IMG/VR virus record: IMGVR_UViG_3300028423_000176
Location: 1 to 21,614 of that record
Reading direction: 5' to 3' (one strand)
Length of the DNA stretch: 21,614 nt
Source: a virus
Shown here piece after piece: positions 565 to 14,716 of the stretch; the first letter of the stretch is position 1, and the number at the start of each line of letters is the position of its first letter. The notes beneath the pieces were generated by a model. The model was not told the origin of the DNA and made no database searches. It saw nothing but the letters and a program-made list of their open reading frames with translations. The position numbers were made by a program, and so were the translations under genes.

Positions 565-1431
565 ATGCAACACACCCAACGCAGCGAAGGCTGGCACAAA
601 CAGCGCGCTGGCCGCGTCACGGGAAGCGTCGTGGGGGCTATTTTGGGGCTTGCACCATATATGACGCGCGAGGACGTGTTGCGCTCCATGGTGCGAGCAT
701 ACCACGGCGCAGAACGCGAGTTTAAAGGGAATGTAGCAACCGAGTGGGGTGCTTCTAACGAAGCGGGCGCGGTGATGGATTACGAGCTTGAAACGGGGAA
801 TACCGTTCAAGAGGCGTATTTCGTGCCGTTTGATGATTGGCTTGGCGCTTCGCCTGATGGATATATTGGCGATGACGGACTGCTAGAGGTTAAGTGCCCT
901 TACGGCATCCGCGCGCAACACGAGCCGCAATTTAAGTCTATTTGGGATCAACCGCACTACTACGCGCAAATCCAAGTGCAGCTGCACTGTTGTGGCCGCA
1001 AATGGTGCGACTTCTGGCAATGGACGCCGCATGGCACAAAGCTAGAGCGGGTTGATTATGATCCTGAATGGATCAACAATACCTTGCCAGCTTTGCGGCA
1101 ATTCCACGCTGAATACCTGTCAGAAATAGACAACCCCGAACACCTTGAACCGTTGCGGGTGCAGGTCAATACGCAAGAGGCCAAGCGGCTTTTGGACGAA
1201 TACGACGATTTGAAAGAGGCTATCGACAACGCAAAGGACCGTCAAAAGGAAGTGCAAGCCGAACTTGTGGCATTGGTAGGCGATAAGAACGCGGAGATTT
1301 GGGGCCGAAAGCTGACAAAGGTGCAAAAACAAGGTTCCATTTCCTATGCAAAGGCGTTAAAGGATATTGCACCGGACGCGGACCTAGAACCGTATCGCGG
1401 CAAGGAAACGGAATACTGGAAGTTGAGTTGA
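565..1431 (+). CDS. YqaJ/lambda-type exonuclease
   Basis: 288-aa member of the PD-(D/E)XK YqaJ viral recombinase family, which degrades one strand of duplex ends to load a recombinase or annealing protein. Landmarks: N-terminal SVVGAILGLAPY (21-32), ATEWGASNE (58-66), the active-site Asp in GASPDG (D98), Glu and Lys in LEVK (E108, K110), and the following helix YYAQIQVQLH (132-141). These match the lambda Exo arrangement (D119, E129, K131). The C-terminal third is charged and probably helical. I chose ATG 565 because AAAGGGGA at 552-559 lies just upstream; an in-frame ATG at 508 would put the terminator hairpin inside the gene. With the SSB-like neighbour it would form a phage recombination pair. 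Confidence 0.9.
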   Translation: MQHTQRSEGWHKQRAGRVTGSVVGAILGLAPYMTREDVLRSMVRAYHGAEREFKGNVATEWGASNEAGAVMDYELETGNTVQEAYFVPFDDWLGASPDGYIGDDGLLEVKCPYGIRAQHEPQFKSIWDQPHYYAQIQVQLHCCGRKWCDFWQWTPHGTKLERVDYDPEWINNTLPALRQFHAEYLSEIDNPEHLEPLRVQVNTQEAKRLLDEYDDLKEAIDNAKDRQKEVQAELVALVGDKNAEIWGRKLTKVQKQGSISYAKALKDIAPDADLEPYRGKETEYWKLS

Positions 1432-1444
1432 AGGGGTAAGTTCA

Positions 1445-1675
1445 ATGAAACATAATAACACCAAGATAGCTGGAATGATGAACATCTATGATTGTTCTCA
1501 AGAAGAGGCAGTAATTCGTCTTGATATGTATGAAAGCGGCTTTCAAGATGGAAGGGAAAAAGGTCAGTCTGAGGCGCAGAGGTTTTTTAGGCTTTCTCTA
1601 GGAATTGAGGAACCTGATTTAGATGAGGAGGTTTATTGGAATAATCCGGTTCCGCTCAAGACCGGTGGTGAATAG
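1445..1675 (+). CDS. Hypothetical 76-aa protein
   Basis: Not recognised. It is preceded by AAGGGG around 1433-1438, 13 bp after the exonuclease stop. Residues 1-50 look helical and basic to mixed (EEAVIRLDMYESGFQDGREK), and the C-terminal third is acidic (EEPDLDEEVYW). No catalytic motif or membrane segment is visible. Its TAG stop shares the G with the GTG start of the helicase gene, so the two are probably translationally coupled. The position suggests an accessory role in recombination or replication, but that is context only. Confidence 0.75.
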   Translation: MKHNNTKIAGMMNIYDCSQEEAVIRLDMYESGFQDGREKGQSEAQRFFRLSLGIEEPDLDEEVYWNNPVPLKTGGE

Positions 1676-3489
1676 TGACCTACACCCTACGCCCATACCA
1701 GGAGACATGCGTAAACAAGGCGATGGACTTCCTAAAGAAGTCTGTCGAACCTTGCATGGTGGATGCAGCTCCGGCGGCGGGAAAGTCATTTATGATAGCC
1801 GCAATAAGCGACCGCCTATACCAGACCAGCGGCGGAAAGAAGGTTTTGAACTTAGCCCCATCGAAGGAACTTGTGCAGCAAAATCACGCCAAGATGCTTT
1901 TGACGGGGCACCCGGCGTCTATATTTTCGGCAAGCGCGGGTAGTAAATCCACTCGGCACAATATCGTGTTCGGAACCCCAGGGACCGTGAAAAACAACAT
2001 CCGCCGATTTATGTCTGGATATTGCGCGGTGAATGTAGATGAATGCCACGGCATTACGCCAACAATCCAAACGATCATTGAGACCATGCGCGAAGGTAGT
2101 CCGAACTTGCGCGTTATAGGGTGGTCTGGCACTCCGTTTCGGTTAAATACGGGCTACATATTTAGGCTGTTTCCAGATGGTCGCCCTGTTCCAGAGGAAC
2201 AAACGAAAGACCCTTATTTTGCGCAATGTGTTCACCGCGTCAGCGCAAAGGAAATGCTAGATCAGGGGTTCCTTTGCCCCATGACGGTCGGTGCGCCGCT
2301 CTCCGATGGGTATGACGCATCGGGATTGAAACCTAACCGCATGGGAAAGTTTGATCCGACCGACCTGCATAGCGTATTTGTCGGGCATGGGCGCAAGACC
2401 GCTGCAATCGTGGGTGACGTAGTTGAGCAATCGCGCAACCGTTACGGCGGGTGCATGTTGTTCGCTGCGACGGTTGAGCACTGCCACGAAATCATGGCCA
2501 GCCTGCCGCCGGGGAATAGCGGGTTTGTGACGGGAGATCATGCCGAGGCTTGCGGCGGGACGGTTAAGGGCCGAGACGCGGTTACAAAAGCCTATCGTGA
2601 CCAGCGGTTTAAGTATCTGGTTTCGGTCGGAACGCTCACAACGGGGTTTGACGTAGAGCACACCTCTACGATTGCCACACTACGCAAGACGGAAAGCGCG
2701 GCATTGCTGCAACAGATACTTGGGCGCGGATGGCGCATTGATCCGCAGAAGAAAGACGCGCTATGGCTTGACTATGCCAATAACTGCGATGAACACTTCC
2801 CGGACGGCGATATTTATGAGCCGGAAATCAAGTCGGGGTATGGCACGGGGTCTAGTGGTGCAATCCACGCCAAATGCCCGATGTGCGAGGCGGTCAATGA
2901 GTTTTCAGAGCGGCAAAACCCGGACGGGTTTGATGTGACGCCGGAAGGGTATTTCGCGGATTTGCAGGGCGAACCTATCGAAACGGAACACGGCCCTATG
3001 CCAGCGCATTACGGGCGGCGATGTACGAACCTGCTGCCCGCTCTAGGGGGTAGGCTCGAACAGTGCCAATACCGTTGGACTAGCAAGGAATGTGGCGCGT
3101 GTGGCGCGGCCAATGATATTGCGGCGCGGAGGTGTTTCGAGTGTAAAGCGGAAATTGTTGACCCGAATGAGCGCTTGCAAATCGAGTTTAGACAACTGAA
3201 ACGCAACCCGCGCAACCGGCAAACAGATGAAGTCGTAAAGTGCGAAGTTCGGGAAAGCGTAAGCGCTAACGGGAATGAGACAATCCGCGTTGACTTTGTG
3301 ACACCGTATCGGTCATTCTCGATTTGGCTAATGAAGCGCCCGACAAATAATATCGCGGCGGCGGCGCTTGATTTGTGGAAGTCACTTGATGGACAAACGC
3401 CGCGCACCGTGACATACCAGAAAGAGGACAGCGGATTTTTCCGCGTTTTTGCCTATAATAAGGAGCCTGACGTTGATCCTACCACATAA
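1675..3489 (+). CDS. SF2 DEAD/DEAH-type helicase with C-terminal zinc-binding motifs
   Basis: 604-aa superfamily 2 ATPase. Motifs in order: LRPYQ near the N-terminus, Walker A APAAGKS (about 32-38), Walker B DECH (122-125), motif III SGTP (151-154), motif V LTTGFDV (321-327) and motif VI QQILGRGWR (346-354). The C-terminal part carries cysteine pairs CPMC (401-404), CGAC (473-476) and CFEC (487-490), with further cysteines near 450 and 464, so one or two zinc ribbons are likely. It should use ATP to unwind or remodel DNA during phage replication or recombination. The start is GTG, sharing one base with the upstream TAG; I see no better start. The 3' end overlaps the VRR-NUC gene by 17 bp. Confidence 0.88.
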   Translation: MTYTLRPYQETCVNKAMDFLKKSVEPCMVDAAPAAGKSFMIAAISDRLYQTSGGKKVLNLAPSKELVQQNHAKMLLTGHPASIFSASAGSKSTRHNIVFGTPGTVKNNIRRFMSGYCAVNVDECHGITPTIQTIIETMREGSPNLRVIGWSGTPFRLNTGYIFRLFPDGRPVPEEQTKDPYFAQCVHRVSAKEMLDQGFLCPMTVGAPLSDGYDASGLKPNRMGKFDPTDLHSVFVGHGRKTAAIVGDVVEQSRNRYGGCMLFAATVEHCHEIMASLPPGNSGFVTGDHAEACGGTVKGRDAVTKAYRDQRFKYLVSVGTLTTGFDVEHTSTIATLRKTESAALLQQILGRGWRIDPQKKDALWLDYANNCDEHFPDGDIYEPEIKSGYGTGSSGAIHAKCPMCEAVNEFSERQNPDGFDVTPEGYFADLQGEPIETEHGPMPAHYGRRCTNLLPALGGRLEQCQYRWTSKECGACGAANDIAARRCFECKAEIVDPNERLQIEFRQLKRNPRNRQTDEVVKCEVRESVSANGNETIRVDFVTPYRSFSIWLMKRPTNNIAAAALDLWKSLDGQTPRTVTYQKEDSGFFRVFAYNKEPDVDPTT

Positions 3490-6805: not shown

Positions 6806-6880
6806 ATGACACCACAAGACTACATGGACCTTCCATATGCTGGCATGGCTGAAAAGGAATTGCGCAAACGTAGGCTATGA
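6806..6880 (+). CDS. 24-aa mini-ORF, possibly the first half of a split gene
   Basis: A strong AAAAGGAGA (6793-6800) precedes ATG 6806, so translation starting here is likely. The peptide begins MTPQDYMDLPYAGM and ends in a basic cluster ELRKRRL before TGA 6878-6880. The same frame stays open from 6881 to 6994, so this could be the front part of a 62-aa protein interrupted by one TGA. Function unknown. Confidence 0.45.
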   Translation: MTPQDYMDLPYAGMAEKELRKRRL

Positions 6881-10763: not shown

Positions 10764-11518
10764 CCATCACCGCAACCATGATTGCCGACAGCGTATCCCC
10801 TCAAGGGGTGCGCCTGTCTACCTTGTCGCTACGGTATCCGCGCTTTATTCACAGCGAGGTCATGACTCACCGCGCATTCAGCCGCAACGCATCGTCAAGC
10901 CGCGCAATTCCGATCGAGCGGATGATCCAGGACGTTCTGGACGATCCCGCCATGCCGATTGAATGGGGTGCTAATCAGCCGGGAATGCAAGCCGGTGGCG
11001 TTGTCGATGATCCAGAGGAATGCAAGCGTATTTGGCTTGCGGCGCGGGATGACGCGGTATTGCAGGCCCGTGATCTTGCGGAAATGGGCGTGCATAAGCA
11101 GATCGTGAACCGCATTCTTGAACCTTACATGCATATCAACGTGCTAGTGAGCGCGACGGAATGGGGCAACTTCTTTACGCTGCGTGACCACGCCGACGCG
11201 CAGCCTGAAATACGGGAATTGGCGCAGGCTATTAAGGTTGCAATGTCAGAAAGCAAGCCGAAAGAGTTGCAATGGGGTGAATGGCATACACCATACAGCG
11301 AAAACGGCGACAAGCTAATGTCAGTGGCCTGTTGCGCATCGGTCAGCTATAAGACGGTCGAGGGCAAAACCATGTCCTTTGAACGGGCTGGCGCGATCTA
11401 TGACAAGCTTATGGGTCCTCCGTTTCATGCCAGTCCGTTTGAGCATGTGGCAACGCCGTGCATAGAGGGAAGTGGTAACTTTCAAGGATGGCGGCAATGG
11501 CGGAAGGATTTTGAGTGA
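10760..11518 (+). CDS. thyX: Flavin-dependent thymidylate synthase ThyX
   Basis: 252-aa FAD-dependent enzyme that methylates dUMP to dTMP using methylenetetrahydrofolate and NADPH. The ThyX signature appears in the variant form THRAFSRNASSSR (36-48), where the canonical motif is RHRxxSxNExSxR: the leading Arg is Thr and the central Glu is Ala. Other matching parts are PIERMIQDV, HKQIVNRILEPY, the NVLVSATEWGNFFTLRDH block near the middle, and PFEHVATP near the end. The deviations occur in a subset of phage and bacterial ThyX-like enzymes as I recall, but activity cannot be read from sequence. It completes the dUTP to dUMP to dTMP route with dut upstream. Confidence 0.9.
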   Translation: MTITATMIADSVSPQGVRLSTLSLRYPRFIHSEVMTHRAFSRNASSSRAIPIERMIQDVLDDPAMPIEWGANQPGMQAGGVVDDPEECKRIWLAARDDAVLQARDLAEMGVHKQIVNRILEPYMHINVLVSATEWGNFFTLRDHADAQPEIRELAQAIKVAMSESKPKELQWGEWHTPYSENGDKLMSVACCASVSYKTVEGKTMSFERAGAIYDKLMGPPFHASPFEHVATPCIEGSGNFQGWRQWRKDFE

Positions 11519-11805
11519 TGACCGACATAATCGACCGACTATCAGACCCCGAAAAAGTATATCCCGAGGACGACACCGACGACGACTTTGCTCTATACGC
11601 CGCAGCTCGCGAAGAAATCACCCGACTTCGAGAAAAATGCGACAAACAGTCCCATATTTTGCAACACGTATTCCCCGACAAGACCGGTCGATACTTTATC
11701 AGCGGCCAGGGCGGTGAGGTTGACGAAAACGGTTTGCCAGAGCGAGTGAGTATATGCCCCGCGTATGGCGTAGGCTGGACTGTGACTTATCGGCGGGATA
11801 GATGA
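11518..11805 (+). CDS. Hypothetical 95-aa protein
   Basis: Not recognised. ATG 11518 overlaps the thyX TGA (TGATG), and GTG 11515 is an alternative. The N-terminal half is an acidic linker (EDDTDDDFALYAAAREE) leading into a charged helix ITRLREKCDK; the C-terminal half ends VGWTVTYRRDR and could be a small beta domain. From its layout it may be a small accessory protein co-translated with ThyX. Confidence 0.7.
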   Translation: MTDIIDRLSDPEKVYPEDDTDDDFALYAAAREEITRLREKCDKQSHILQHVFPDKTGRYFISGQGGEVDENGLPERVSICPAYGVGWTVTYRRDR

Positions 11806-11843: not shown

Positions 11844-11869
11844 CGTATCAACAGCAAAGGAGATACGCC

Positions 11870-12097
11870 ATGACCATCAACATCCAGACAATCGCAGCGG
11901 AAGATATTGGCGCAGAGATTGTTTACGACCTTGGCGATAACATGGCCGTCGTTGAATACGAAAACGAACGCATGGTCATTGCAGATGTTGAGGATATGGC
12001 AGAGTTCGGCGAGTTCACGCCTATCAGCAACGCGACAAGGTTCCGCGACGATGTTTCGCGCGAAGATCGTATCGCGTCCATGGTGGCGAAGTATTAA
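11870..12097 (+). CDS. Hypothetical acidic 75-aa protein
   Basis: Not recognised. Strong AAAGGAG at 11856-11862 before ATG 11870. The protein is acidic, with a probable beta region (EIVYDLGDNMAVVEYENER) followed by VIADVEDMAEFGEF and a C-terminal helix SREDRIASMVAKY. It stands alone, with its own possible promoter upstream and the structured element plus terminator at 12102-12201 directly downstream, so it is probably a single-gene transcript. Confidence 0.7.
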   Translation: MTINIQTIAAEDIGAEIVYDLGDNMAVVEYENERMVIADVEDMAEFGEFTPISNATRFRDDVSREDRIASMVAKY

Positions 12098-12168: not shown

Positions 12169-12201
12169 GGCGGGCAATATGATTGCCCCGCCGATTTTTT
12201 T
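12169..12201 (+). terminator. Rho-independent terminator after the 11870 transcript
   Basis: Stem GGCGGGCAAT (12169-12178) with ATTGCCCCGCC (12182-12192, one bulged C), 3-nt loop, then a run of seven T (12195-12201). It insulates the following promoter at 12203. Confidence 0.85.
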
Positions 12202-12202
12202 G

Positions 12203-12232
12203 TTGACAGGGTGTTTTGTGGCGTGCTAGAAC
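12203..12232 (+). promoter_or_regulatory. Promoter of small-gene cassette 1
   Basis: Perfect -35 TTGACA (12203-12208), 18-bp spacer, extended -10 TGC-TAGAAC (TGC at 12224-12226, TAGAAC at 12227-12232). It starts directly after a terminator and lies just before the 33-bp leader repeat. Confidence 0.6.
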
Positions 12233-12237
12233 GTATG

Positions 12238-12270
12238 TAACGAAACGCTAGATAGGAGATAGCGAGATGG
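12238..12270 (+). repeat. 33-bp leader repeat, copy 1, with RBS in a hairpin loop
   Basis: Identical over 33 bp to 14395-14427. It contains an inverted repeat CGCTA (12246-12250) / TAGCG (12260-12264) whose 9-nt loop carries AGGAG (12254-12258), 8 nt before ATG 12267. The Shine-Dalgarno is thus displayed in, or held by, a small hairpin. The repeat ends with the start codon and the first base of codon 2, so it belongs to the untranslated leader. Confidence 0.85.
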
Positions 12271-12461
12271 AAAAGATGCTTAAAAACCTTAAAGCCGGGG
12301 AAAATGTATTCTTCGCAAGGTCTGAATGCGAATATGAAGAGTTTACCGAATGGCTTTGCGATAACGGATGGAGTTTTTCTAGACACTTTGAAAGCGGCGA
12401 AGCTTTTCAACGCAAAATGCCAGATGGCTTTTTAAGGGTAGTTGAGGTTGTCGGGCTGTGA
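12267..12461 (+). CDS. Hypothetical 64-aa protein of cassette 1
   Basis: Not recognised. It starts right after the leader repeat. MEKMLKNLKAGENVFFARSE, then an acidic helix CEYEEFTEWLCDNGW and a C-terminal beta-like part ending VVEVVGL. It has its own promoter (12203) and terminators (12466-12493, 12532-12557), so it is a monocistronic unit. The shared leader with the 14424 gene implies shared control, although the two proteins are not similar. Confidence 0.75.
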   Translation: MEKMLKNLKAGENVFFARSECEYEEFTEWLCDNGWSFSRHFESGEAFQRKMPDGFLRVVEVVGL

Positions 12462-12465
12462 CAAC

Positions 12466-12493
12466 AAAGGCCGCGACGAGTTGCGCGGCCTTT
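12466..12493 (+). terminator. Bidirectional terminator
   Basis: Perfect 10-bp stem AAAGGCCGCG (12466-12475) / CGCGGCCTTT (12484-12493), 8-nt loop. The A tract on one side and T tract on the other let it work for both strands, which fits its place between convergent gene blocks; it may be the end of the long minus-strand transcript. Confidence 0.75.
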
Positions 12494-12529
12494 ATCTGTT
12501 AGGCATGGCATACCAAATACCCAGACAAC

Positions 12530-12557
12530 CACCCCGCGCCAAACAAGCGCGGGGTTT
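12530..12557 (+). terminator. Terminator hairpin, copy 1 of a 28-bp repeat
   Basis: Stem CCCCGCGC (12532-12539) / GCGCGGGG (12547-12554), 7-nt loop, then TTT. The 28 bp from 12530 to 12557 match 14584-14611 with one difference in the loop. The T tract is short (TTTATA), so termination on the plus strand may be partial. Confidence 0.7.
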
Positions 12558-12571
12558 ATAGCTTACAGGTC

Positions 12572-12612
12572 ATAAATATACGCTATAGCGTATAGATCAT
12601 ATTTATACGCTA
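12572..12612. repeat. Triple 9-bp repeat / nested palindrome between convergent genes
   Basis: TATACGCTA occurs at 12577-12585, in reverse complement at 12586-12594 (together a perfect 18-bp palindrome), and again in direct orientation at 12604-12612, where it overlaps the stop codon of the minus-strand gene. ATAAATAT (12572-12579) and ATATTTAT (12599-12606) form a further inverted pair. The middle copy can pair with either neighbour, giving alternative hairpins. It could be an operator, a replication- or recombination-related site, or an AT-rich 3' hairpin. Confidence 0.6.
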
Positions 12613-12888
12613 CGACGCATCCTTACTATCCGCCTCCCCAGCAAGCGCAAAATATGCCGCACCATCTACAAAGCTATCCATGCGGAACGCGCCCTGTTGA
12701 CTTCGCACGGCCTTGAGCAGTGCCATAAATAGCCAACCCTGCGCCTCGGTCATAGCAACACCTGTGACCGCTTCGAACGCCCCCACAGTCGCCCCCATGC
12801 TGCGCTCACCTTCGGGCTTGTCGTATGTTGCGGCGCGGTCCTGCATTTCCGCCGCAGCTTGTGTTAAAATATCCGGTGCGTCCATCAT
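12610..12888 (-). CDS. DUF6378-like phage protein
   Basis: 92 aa. The arrangement ILTQAAAEMQDRAATYDKPE, then ERSMGATVGAFEAVTG and AQGWLFMALLKAVRSQ, followed by a segment DSFVDGAAYFALAGE, matches a small helical family common in phages (DUF6378 as I recall), of unknown function; its charged/histidine-poor helical bundle has been likened to small nucleotide-handling folds only speculatively. The ATG (12886-12888) overlaps the TGA of the upstream phosphoesterase by 4 bp. It is the last gene of the minus-strand block, with the stop inside the 9-bp repeat cluster. Confidence 0.7.
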   Translation of the reverse strand: MMDAPDILTQAAAEMQDRAATYDKPEGERSMGATVGAFEAVTGVAMTEAQGWLFMALLKAVRSQQGAFRMDSFVDGAAYFALAGEADSKDAS

Positions 12889-14003
12889 TCACTCCTTTCA
12901 ATCGGCTCAATTACATTCATCCGCAACCCGTGCGCGGCGCTATAGACAAACCCCTGCAACGCCCTTCGACCCGCAAACATCGCGCCGAAATCATCCGCAG
13001 GACAGAACGCCCGCAGGCTCCACCACTTGACGCCTGGAAAGTCCTTGACGCTATCATGGTGGATATGGCCCGTCAAAATATGCCTGTCCCGTGCCGCGCT
13101 CCATTCTGGGCATGTATCTGCAAGAAACATTGCCAAGTCCCGCGCATTGCGCTTGTCGCCATGGTGGAACGCTACCAAAGACTTGCCGTGTCGATACCAG
13201 TAGACATCGCGTTCGGCAGGCTCGACTGTGACATTGTGTGCGCCGCCGTATGCCGCCTGCAAAGAAAAGTGCAGGATCAGGTGCGCGTGGGGATCGTGAT
13301 TGCCGCGCAACACTCTGACGATTACCTCCGCATGTTTGTCGCAAAGGTGGTCAATAGTCCATGTGATAGCATCAATCGCAACATCGCTTATTTTGTATAG
13401 CCGCCCGTCGCTGTCCAACTTGTGTCCGCTCGTCGGGGTTTCAGACCGATTGTCATCGACGTGTAGGGTATCGCCGCCTAGTACAAGAATAGCCGTGTCA
13501 GCATCCGGCATATCAGCAGTTAGGTCGGTAAACGCTTGCTTTAGATCATCGCCCGCAAGTGACAGGTCATAATCAGGGCTGCCTGTTTCCTTACCCCAAG
13601 CCCGCATCCCAAAGTGCGCGTCCATGAGGGGATATACTGCTAGTAGATCATTGCCGCGCGGTTTCGCCTGACGCGGCTCATATGGCGGGATATCCTTGAA
13701 CGCCTCGGCAATATCCGCTAGAATGTCTTTACTATCACCAGCCGTTGCGTTCTTGAAGTGGCCAGTTACAAAACCACCATCTTCGGTTGGCATTCGTCGC
13801 CAATAGTGATCCATCTGCGACACATCAGCCATACCAAAGGCTTGCGCTGTTTGGGATACTTGCGGATCAGCATTAATCCACTTCCGCGCCCGCTCAAGCC
13901 TATGTTTCACCGCGCTTTCTGAAATACCAAGGGACGCCGCTATTTCCTTTCGCGTTGCGCCACCTTGCTGCATATCCCAGGCTTGCTTTTGCTCCGGCGT
14001 CAT
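12885..14003 (-). CDS. HTH-metallophosphoesterase fusion protein
   Basis: 372 aa. Residues 1-45 form a sigma-region-4/LuxR-like helix-turn-helix (ATRKEIAASLGISESAVKHR, 16-35). From about 118 comes a calcineurin-like phosphoesterase domain with the metal-binding set DAH (128-130), GGD (176-178), RGNHD (233-237), HHGD (280-283) and GHIHH (312-316). Such enzymes hydrolyse phosphate esters, nucleic acids or cyclic nucleotides; the substrate is unknown. The HTH suggests DNA targeting or regulation. Similar two-domain proteins occur in phages, often near packaging genes. ATG 14003 follows directly after the TGA of the secreted-protein gene. All metal ligands seem intact, so activity is likely. Confidence 0.88.
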   Translation of the reverse strand: MTPEQKQAWDMQQGGATRKEIAASLGISESAVKHRLERARKWINADPQVSQTAQAFGMADVSQMDHYWRRMPTEDGGFVTGHFKNATAGDSKDILADIAEAFKDIPPYEPRQAKPRGNDLLAVYPLMDAHFGMRAWGKETGSPDYDLSLAGDDLKQAFTDLTADMPDADTAILVLGGDTLHVDDNRSETPTSGHKLDSDGRLYKISDVAIDAITWTIDHLCDKHAEVIVRVLRGNHDPHAHLILHFSLQAAYGGAHNVTVEPAERDVYWYRHGKSLVAFHHGDKRNARDLAMFLADTCPEWSAARDRHILTGHIHHDSVKDFPGVKWWSLRAFCPADDFGAMFAGRRALQGFVYSAAHGLRMNVIEPIERSE

Positions 14004-14297
14004 TCAAAACACCTCGCCAATGATACGCGACTGCCCGTTGATGCCACTTTCAATCAAGCACCGACTATCGCCTTGCCGCATCGTTAGTGTCCAGGTTCCC
14101 GTTTCGTCGTTTACCCAAAATTCAATGATCGTGCGATCCTCGGTCATACCGTAAGCTGCGATTTCTTCACCAAACTGGCCTTGAAGATACGCCTCGGCCT
14201 GATCCGCTGGCCCGCAATTCGTGCCTTGTGCCATAGCAGGTGCGGCTGGGGCGCACGCCGCGACGGTCAAAAATGCGCTTGTCAGTAGTGTTTTCAT
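14004..14297 (-). CDS. Small secreted protein with two cysteines, host-like
   Basis: 97 aa. A signal peptide (KTLLTSAFLTVAACAPAAPA) ends either at a signal peptidase I site after AMA or at a lipobox VAAC with C15. The mature part has C28 and C80, which could form a disulfide, and the central pattern WVNDETGTWTLTM. From memory this matches a short periplasmic protein family frequent in Rhodobacteraceae chromosomes, of unknown function, so it is probably of host origin and a clue to the host. AAAAGGAGG (about 14303-14311, minus) precedes the ATG. It starts a three-gene unit with the phosphoesterase and DUF6378-like genes. Confidence 0.75.
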   Translation of the reverse strand: MKTLLTSAFLTVAACAPAAPAMAQGTNCGPADQAEAYLQGQFGEEIAAYGMTEDRTIIEFWVNDETGTWTLTMRQGDSRCLIESGINGQSRIIGEVF

Positions 14298-14323
14298 GGT
14301 CTTGCCTCCTTTTGTGTGCGACC

Positions 14324-14352
14324 ACGTTAGCGGATTGTGCGGAAAATGTCAA
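14324..14352 (-). promoter_or_regulatory. Possible minus-strand promoter for the secreted-protein operon
   Basis: Read on the minus strand: TTGACA (14347-14352), 17 bp, TAACGT (14324-14329). Perfect -35, weak -10. It is back to back with the plus-strand candidate at 14361, so the region is a divergent control region. Confidence 0.45.
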
Positions 14353-14360
14353 ATCAGGTG

Positions 14361-14389
14361 TTGACGATGGTGGTGTGGTGTGGCAAAAG
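14361..14389 (+). promoter_or_regulatory. Possible promoter of small-gene cassette 2
   Basis: TTGACG (14361-14366), 17 bp, CAAAAG (14384-14389). The -10 box is poor, but the distance from the -35 box to the leader repeat (28 bp) is almost the same as in cassette 1 (29 bp), which supports a shared promoter layout. Confidence 0.35.
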
Positions 14390-14394
14390 GTGGA

Positions 14395-14427
14395 TAACGA
14401 AACGCTAGATAGGAGATAGCGAGATGG
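14395..14427 (+). repeat. 33-bp leader repeat, copy 2
   Basis: Identical to 12238-12270, including the CGCTA/TAGCG hairpin with AGGAG in its loop. It ends with ATG 14424-14426 and the first base of codon 2. Confidence 0.85.
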
Positions 14428-14579
14428 CTTACACAGCAACAATAGTTAAGAACTCAAACACGGGGCGCTTTGACGTCATGATGGCCGCAATTGGTGGAGA
14501 TCAGGTTTCGCGTTATGGCTCATACGCGACATACGGACGTGCGGAAAAAGCCGCTAAGAAAGTCGAGCTAATGAAGTAA
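14424..14579 (+). CDS. Hypothetical basic 51-aa protein of cassette 2
   Basis: Too short for routine calling but well supported: it starts exactly at the end of the leader repeat and its TAA is followed within 10 bp by a strong terminator. The protein begins MAYTATIVKNSNTGRFDVMM, has a short beta-like half, then an Ala/Lys-rich helix RAEKAAKKVELMK. Not recognised. It is on the plus strand inside the minus-strand late block, so it is controlled apart from its neighbours, like a phage moron gene. Confidence 0.75.
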   Translation: MAYTATIVKNSNTGRFDVMMAAIGGDQVSRYGSYATYGRAEKAAKKVELMK

Positions 14580-14583
14580 AAAA

Positions 14584-14615
14584 CACCCCGCGCCTAACAA
14601 GCGCGGGGTTTTCTT
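14584..14615 (+). terminator. Rho-independent terminator, copy 2 of the 28-bp repeat
   Basis: Stem CCCCGCGC (14586-14593) / GCGCGGGG (14601-14608), 7-nt loop, then TTTTCTT (14609-14615). Positions 14584-14611 match 12530-12557 except for one loop base. The longer T tract makes this the stronger of the two. Confidence 0.85.
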
Positions 14616-14629
14616 AATAGGAGATACAC

Positions 14630-14716
14630 ATGACCAACCTAATCAAAGACGCCATCGCCTGCCTGTGCCTATTCATCATAGGCTATGCGTCGTTGTTTGC
14701 GCCCCTGATACTGTAG
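14630..14716 (+). CDS. 28-aa single-helix membrane peptide
   Basis: AGGAG at 14619-14623, 6 nt before ATG 14630, with the same GGAGATAC context as other starts in this window. The peptide MTNLIKDAIACLCLFIIGYA... is one hydrophobic segment from residue 8 to the end, so a small inner-membrane peptide is plausible. It starts just after the terminator of cassette 2, and no separate promoter is seen. Its 3' end overlaps the convergent gene at 14683-14883 by 34 bp. Function unknown; it may not be expressed. Confidence 0.45.
   Translation: MTNLIKDAIACLCLFIIGYASLFAPLIL

Follow-up and report, generated by a model that had tools for sequence, protein, structure and literature searches.

Two small-gene cassettes with one leader

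The DNA analyzed here is the IMG/VR virus record IMGVR_UViG_3300028423_000176, positions 1-21,614 (the window; 21,614 bp, 52.2% GC), which carries two small-gene cassettes whose unrelated genes, encoding proteins of 64 and 51 amino acids (aa), stand behind identical 33-bp leaders. Its rightward early block encodes nucleases, helicases, a methyltransferase, a beta clamp, a dUTPase, a B12-dependent ribonucleotide reductase and a ThyX-like protein, and its leftward block a tape measure protein, tail proteins, a lysozyme-type endolysin, spanins, a secreted protein and a DNA-repair exonuclease. The clamp, dUTPase, ThyX and methyltransferase names were read off the protein sequences, without a family search.

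Cassette 1 begins where the early block ends. The early-block terminator (12169-12201, plus strand; GGCGGGCAAT-ATG-ATTGCCCCGCC then T7; fold -16.1 kcal/mol) directly abuts TTGACA (12203-12208, plus strand), a putative -35 box that is separated by a 17-bp spacer from a weak -10, CTAGAA (12226-12231, plus strand). Leader copy 1 (12238-12270, plus strand), probably a near-complete transcribed 5' untranslated region (UTR), leads into the 64-aa gene (12267-12461, plus strand; no known relatives). A first terminator follows (12466-12493, plus strand; 10-bp stem, fold -18.2 kcal/mol), and then, 69 nt past the stop codon, copy 1 of a terminator repeat shared by both cassettes (12530-12557, listed without a strand), at the convergent junction with a minus-strand operon ending at 12610. 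Cassette 2 is a plus-strand gene within the minus-strand late block, as had been claimed. It has TTGACG as putative -35 box (14361-14366, plus strand) with a weak -10, CAAAAG, followed by leader copy 2 (14395-14427, plus strand; 33 bp), the 51-aa gene (14424-14579, plus strand) and copy 2 of the shared terminator (14584-14611, again without a strand), which is bidirectional, with TTTTTT on the minus strand. The boxes of both cassettes were assigned from sequence.

A sequence-only reading of this DNA had reported identical 33-bp leaders, a 28-bp terminator repeat with one mismatch and enclosed proteins that are not alike, and all three points were confirmed. The two leaders agree at 33/33 positions; a 26-mer of the leader, with three or fewer mismatches allowed, occurs twice in the window and in none of 100 dinucleotide shuffles. 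The copies of the terminator repeat agree at 27/28 positions and are likewise the only two in the window, with no occurrence in the shuffles. The alignment of the 64- and 51-aa genes does not rise above shuffles, and BLAST found no similarity between them. Outside the leader, the cassettes are weakly alike upstream only (5/1000 shuffles reach the score). The same reading had described one order for both cassettes. TTGAC does lie at a matching distance upstream of the two leader copies (35 and 34 nt, starting at 12203 and 14361), followed by leader, gene and repeat, but the closer terminator of cassette 1 had been missed.

A third gene (11870-12097, plus strand) has its own gap, a TTGAC and a leader of similar geometry but different stem sequence. 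This leader (11844-11869, plus strand) contains a CGUAUC...GAUACG hairpin with the Shine-Dalgarno (SD) sequence AGGA in the loop, 2 nt before the AUG.

The leader in a second phage

Relatives were collected by exonuclease similarity and the leader was compared with them by BLAST. One convincing match was found among them, in the record L004, where positions 5979-5948 agree with leader copy 1 at 31/32 positions. The gene order at the early/late junction is the same in L004: a homologue of the gene at 11515-11805, terminator-promoter, leader, small gene, terminator and the convergent exonuclease side. The L004 gene behind the leader encodes a 50-aa protein, MLPFIKLWTDKDAICGNIYRVEFLDGSVCGYPSEKIRDYAIERVTGVKPW, unrelated to the 64- and 51-aa proteins of the window. 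Taken together, the window and L004 carry the same leader of about 32 nt before three unrelated genes (64, 51 and 50 aa), in each case ending at the start codon.

The two phages are distant, with 57% amino-acid identity between their exonucleases and 70-78% nucleotide identity in the longest coding alignments, and the leader, at 97%, is the most identical segment aligned between them. Their promoter stretches are marginally alike (22/1000 shuffles reach the score); unlike the leader, the promoter region has drifted. The downstream terminator with its flank is clearly alike (0/1000 shuffles), a likeness not seen in the flank past the terminator taken by itself (57/1000). The leader occurs twice in the 21.6-kb window and once in 27 kb of L004, both records possibly being fragments.

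Wider searches added no further phage. Owing to a one-base difference in L004, a 22-mer of the leader gave 0 matches in viral_contigs. A shorter pattern run against IMG/VR returned L004 as the only other phage, and the phage collection gave no match of note. A match in a Lachnospiraceae contig of genome_contigs has neither the hairpin described below nor a start codon after it and was taken as chance. Looser hairpin matching gave two products. The sequence CGCTA-TGTAGGAGT-TAGCG-AAC-ATG at L090 12931-12967, with the hairpin form of the window leader, precedes an HNH endonuclease-like gene (a label read off the sequence) and may be a chance match. The match in L089 does not look like a gene start. 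This yield does not exceed a rough estimate of chance and is not counted as evidence. The search of relatives proposed by the sequence-only reading thus gave a mixed outcome: the leader was found before a third gene in L004, but in no other phage, and the terminator core turned up in unrelated phages.

The predicted leader hairpin

The leader can fold as CGCUA-GAUAGGAGA-UAGCG (predicted at 12246-12264, plus strand, in copy 1 and at 14403-14421 in copy 2), with the SD in the loop and the stem ending 2 nt before the AUG (-5.1 kcal/mol, z -2.9). The single base change in L004 keeps this fold, as a 6-bp stem. In all three copies, a weak -10, placed by TTGAC (TTGCG in L004) plus a 17-bp spacer, lies five or six nt upstream of UAACG. 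On this spacing the conserved block would correspond to the 5' UTR, from about +1 to the AUG. The leader is likely a functional translation-initiation element.

An SD-loop hairpin with Watson-Crick pairs only was found in 5/103 larger genes of the family, and in 16/103 when G-U pairs were allowed. Three of eight slot-type leaders passed the Watson-Crick test, in a comparison made after seeing the data. These eight comprise the window pair and L004 counted once, the gene at 11870, L005-L007 and L009-L011, with L005 in both counts. Support for the hairpin is modest.

Gene turnover in the slots

In nine records, the window included, the early/late junction still adjoins the exonuclease, and the terminator-promoter composite at this junction is also present in L004, L005, L007 and L009. 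The gene in this slot (slot 1) encodes 64 aa in the window, 50 in L004, 60 in L006, 68 in L007, 71 in L010 and 87 in L011, and L012 has none. The slot 1 genes of L005 (112 aa) and L009 (117 aa) are phosphoribosyltransferase-like and related to each other, so the eight filled slots hold seven gene families.

Two pairs of records show the exchange directly. Around the site L011 and L012 share 91-94% identity, and the slot there is filled in L011 and empty in L012. The extra ~330 bp of L011 consists of a terminator, a promoter-like stretch and a gene, and ends at a terminator common to both. L007 and L009 are 70-82% identical over long segments, and their slot flanks are 97-98% identical (46/47 and 76/78 bp) around unrelated contents, a 68-aa protein in one and the 117-aa phosphoribosyltransferase-like protein in the other. 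As judged by sequence, the filled/empty pair, the swap pair and the seven families in eight slots together show that slot 1 genes turn over by insertion, loss and replacement between nearly constant promoter and terminator flanks. In this phage group, cassette exchange at slot 1 is therefore well supported, and exchange is the most likely reading of the window's own two cassettes. No relative found has the 64- or the 51-aa gene, and the window has no close relative for direct comparison.

Slot 2, the site of cassette 2, may be no different. L009 has a GIY-YIG-like gene (1270-1812, minus strand; a label read off the sequence) in the corresponding region of its late block, which suggests that slot 2 is variable too.

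The leader itself is not a general recombination handle. The conserved L007/L009 flank does not reach the leader, and recombination therefore does not generally rely on it; the leader is rare, and exchange elsewhere uses other flanks. A relative of the 71-aa slot gene of L010 is found in the late block of L005; the two share an 11-nt stretch of the SD region, GGAGGTTTGGC, so there the SD region travels with the gene. The sequence-only reading had proposed a moron-type cassette with flanks that could allow swapping. The variable genes between constant flanks that it had named as support were found (L004, L007/L009, L011/L012), but the leader does not serve as a general flank and the terminator is generic.

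Terminators

Cassette 1 has two terminators of its own (12466-12493 and 12530-12557) and cassette 2 one (14584-14611). Both shared terminators are placed where a plus-strand gene meets a minus-strand operon; because of these convergent positions and the bidirectionality of copy 2, they may serve the minus-strand operons as much as the cassettes. The terminator core, CCCCGCGCCTAACAAGCGCGGGG (23 bp), is also found in L084 (1940-1910, with a match of 31/31 bp), L085 (127-98) and L086 (8442-8464), three contigs in which no synteny with the window was detected. We set the shared terminator aside as an exchange handle, since a core found in three such contigs looks like a generic strong terminator. 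The repeated terminator is accordingly weaker evidence than the leader, its core being present in unrelated phages and a closer terminator preceding it in cassette 1. In L084 and L085 the core follows 97-aa genes that stand alone and have a promoter-like stretch of their own; in L086 it follows a beta clamp and precedes a 44-aa gene.

Two small features lie next to the shared terminators. Between copy 1 and the end of the minus-strand operon (12557-12610) there are two imperfect 27-bp tandem copies (81%), inside which an 18-bp perfect palindrome, TATACGCTATAGCGTATA (12577-12594), contains the CGCTA/TAGCG half-sites of the leader. Just past copy 2, a 28-aa open reading frame (ORF), MTNLIKDAIACLCLFIIGYASLFAPLIL (14630-14716, plus strand), has a good SD, AATAGGAGATACAC, and one likely membrane helix.

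The cassette proteins

A beta-beta-beta-alpha fold is predicted with good confidence for the 51-aa protein (predicted local distance difference test score 89, from the single sequence). Foldseek gave weak matches only for this model, including AP2/HNH-associated phage domains and DUF1508/YegP, and the protein is possibly a small DNA- or RNA-binding domain. A match to KtrA (5but, E 0.0007) was not trusted, no single stretch passing. The predicted structure of the 64-aa protein was too poor for use. Searches of the 64-, 51- and 50-aa proteins against phages, Pfam, PHROGs, NCBIfam and PADLOC, of the 64- and 51-aa proteins against IMG/VR, and of the 51-aa protein alone against plasmids gave nothing convincing. 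The 64-aa gene differs from the phage in base composition (42.6% GC, 41.5 at third codon positions), and the 51-aa gene does so modestly (48.1%).

Comparison with known phage elements

The leader resembles the start-associated sequence (SAS) of cluster K mycobacteriophages. As described in PMC3203893, this element of unknown function has the consensus GGGATAGGAGCCC, is present in 11-19 copies per genome and typically lies 3-7 bp before the start codons of genes of differing families. Its outer parts are symmetric, and position 1 and positions 10-13 are conserved though unable to pair with rRNA. According to PMC7302621, cluster EF Microbacterium phages carry an SAS-like element, GGGAAAGGACCCC, and the cluster EG Microbacterium phages Hyperion and OneinaGillian keep an upstream repeat in place amid otherwise dissimilar sequence. 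The role of the SAS is still ill-defined, and the extended SAS (ESAS) holds putative promoters (PMC11373665).

The window leader likewise recurs, is over-conserved and occupies the ribosome-binding site, within a few nt upstream of the ATG of unrelated genes that have their own upstream gap. It contains AGGAG, its hairpin ends 2 nt before the ATG, and it has GATAGGAG, 8 of 8, in common with GGGATAGGAGCCC. Both elements have complementary arms around the SD core, GGG/CCC in the SAS and CGCTA/TAGCG in the window; in the consensus SAS copies of TM4 a 3-bp GGG/CCC stem is possible, which would place AUAGGAG in the loop. No SD hairpin is proposed for the SAS in the passages of PMC3203893 and PMC7302621 consulted. 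The agreement is, however, limited to the GATAGGAG core: the window sequence CTAGATAGGAGATAG fails GGGATAGGAGCCC at up to two mismatches, and the leader has another arm sequence, a longer stem and a longer conserved 5' part. It is present in two copies in a 21.6-kb fragment rather than in 11-19 per genome, in an apparently alphaproteobacterial phage, and is attached to genes in exchange slots. No ESAS-type 17-bp imperfect inverted repeat was seen upstream of the leaders among the 25 longest of 63 inverted repeats listed. The leader is SAS-like, not an SAS, because GATAGGAG and symmetric arms are common to both while arm sequence, copy number and the ESAS differ.

The cassettes also resemble phage morons: each is a lone small gene that has promoter-like and terminator sequences of its own and is inserted between neighbors that lie side by side in relatives. 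Cassette 2 lies on the opposite strand in the late block, GC is lower than in the window in both genes, and presence and absence at the same site are seen for slot 1 in L011 and L012. The two window morons differ from such genes in sharing an identical leader. The cluster EG repeat offers a partial parallel, the same repeat standing at similar positions in a region with little nucleotide or protein similarity, although it is another sequence, 14-21 bp upstream of start codons and not at the SD (PMC7302621).

Interpretation

We consider it probable that the two cassettes are moron-type cassettes occupying two hypervariable slots of a tailed phage and sharing one standard, SAS-like translation-initiation leader. 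Slot 1 would be the junction of the rightward early and leftward late blocks, and slot 2 a site among the lysis-side late genes. Transcription would start near the first base of the leader, which would be kept as a compact translation-initiation module whose small hairpin loop presents the SD just before the AUG. Incoming genes placed behind this standard leader could be expressed immediately, whatever their product. Exchange would proceed by recombination in the conserved terminator and promoter flanks, and the copying of the leader into slot 2 would be recent or under strong selection. The two cassettes may possibly be regulated together.

Several results weigh against this reading. The promoter scan called neither cassette promoter, and the -10 boxes CTAGAA and CAAAAG are poor. 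The leader is known from two phages only (IMG/VR), and the other slot genes have unrelated leaders, most without a hairpin. The hairpin is short, 2.9% of shuffled leaders with the SD fixed also pass, and z falls to -0.5 and -1.1 with the gene starts attached. Gene replacement between the window and L004 is deduced from absent similarity, so that extreme divergence is possible for that pair. If divergence were the general explanation, the 64-, 51- and 50-aa genes would be orthologues or paralogues beyond recognition and not replacements. Small phage genes can diverge very fast and the three lengths are similar, but no similarity rises above shuffles, and the L007/L009 flanks remain 97-98% identical around unrelated 68- and 117-aa genes. 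We regard this explanation as very unlikely.

The near-identity of the leaders could have other causes. In the mini-regulon also raised by the sequence-only reading, the leader would be a translational operator, and a protein or small RNA from the phage or the host would recognize the hairpin loop and switch both genes together. The constraint, 31/32 across phages, spans the single-stranded 5' part and the loop besides the stem and SD, exceeding the needs of ribosome binding, and the same argument was made for the SAS in PMC3203893. However, no candidate regulator was found, only two window genes carry the leader, and the data do not separate an operator from an enhancer; we consider a mini-regulon possible, if rather unlikely. 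We are also doubtful that the leader is only a homology arm, or a remnant left by a recent local duplication or recombination event, and does nothing beyond serving as a ribosome-binding site. Gene exchange is frequent in the region, and recent recombination could yield two perfect copies and one near-perfect copy in another genome, but the similarity in all three copies is bounded by the start codon (3') and by roughly the expected transcription start (5'), which disfavors this origin because recombination tracts are not expected to end at the same boundaries each time. A DNA operator, with the CGCTA-N9-TAGCG inverted repeat bound by a repressor, seems improbable to us. Its half-sites are symmetric, and the palindrome at 12577-12594 has the same CGCTA/TAGCG, but with a spacing of 0 instead of 9; no further copies are present in the window, and every leader copy takes in the SD and stops at the start codon, as a DNA site need not.

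At the sequence level, the phages offer a clear case of accessory genes being exchanged while the control flanks stay fixed, with one filled/empty pair and one swap pair among the examples. Small proteins that act on hosts or rival phages could also be sought in these slots. The comparison could help explain the long-unexplained SAS: the core GATAGGAG is common, and the arms differ yet stay complementary, as a functional hairpin predicts. A broader and more speculative idea, which we think unlikely to hold in full, is that SD-in-loop hairpins before the AUG are a recurrent phage control element, that they arose separately in actinobacterial phages (the SAS) and in this alphaproteobacterial group, and that they serve exchangeable small genes as a plug-in expression handle, possibly recognized by a dedicated factor.

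Likely host and other observations

A search of the phage collection for a close relative of the window returned none. The window exonuclease is nearest to those of Sulfitobacter phages (50%) and the reductase to those of Lentibacter/Roseobacter phages (75%), so the host is likely a member of the Rhodobacterales. The 92-aa minus-strand gene at 12610-12888 matches phrog_474 (5e-23), whose PHROG label, phosphofructokinase, seems unlikely at such short length. In the gap before the beta clamp, a possible 24-aa ORF (6806-6880) has a good SD, and 29 bp of this ORF are 90% conserved in L004.

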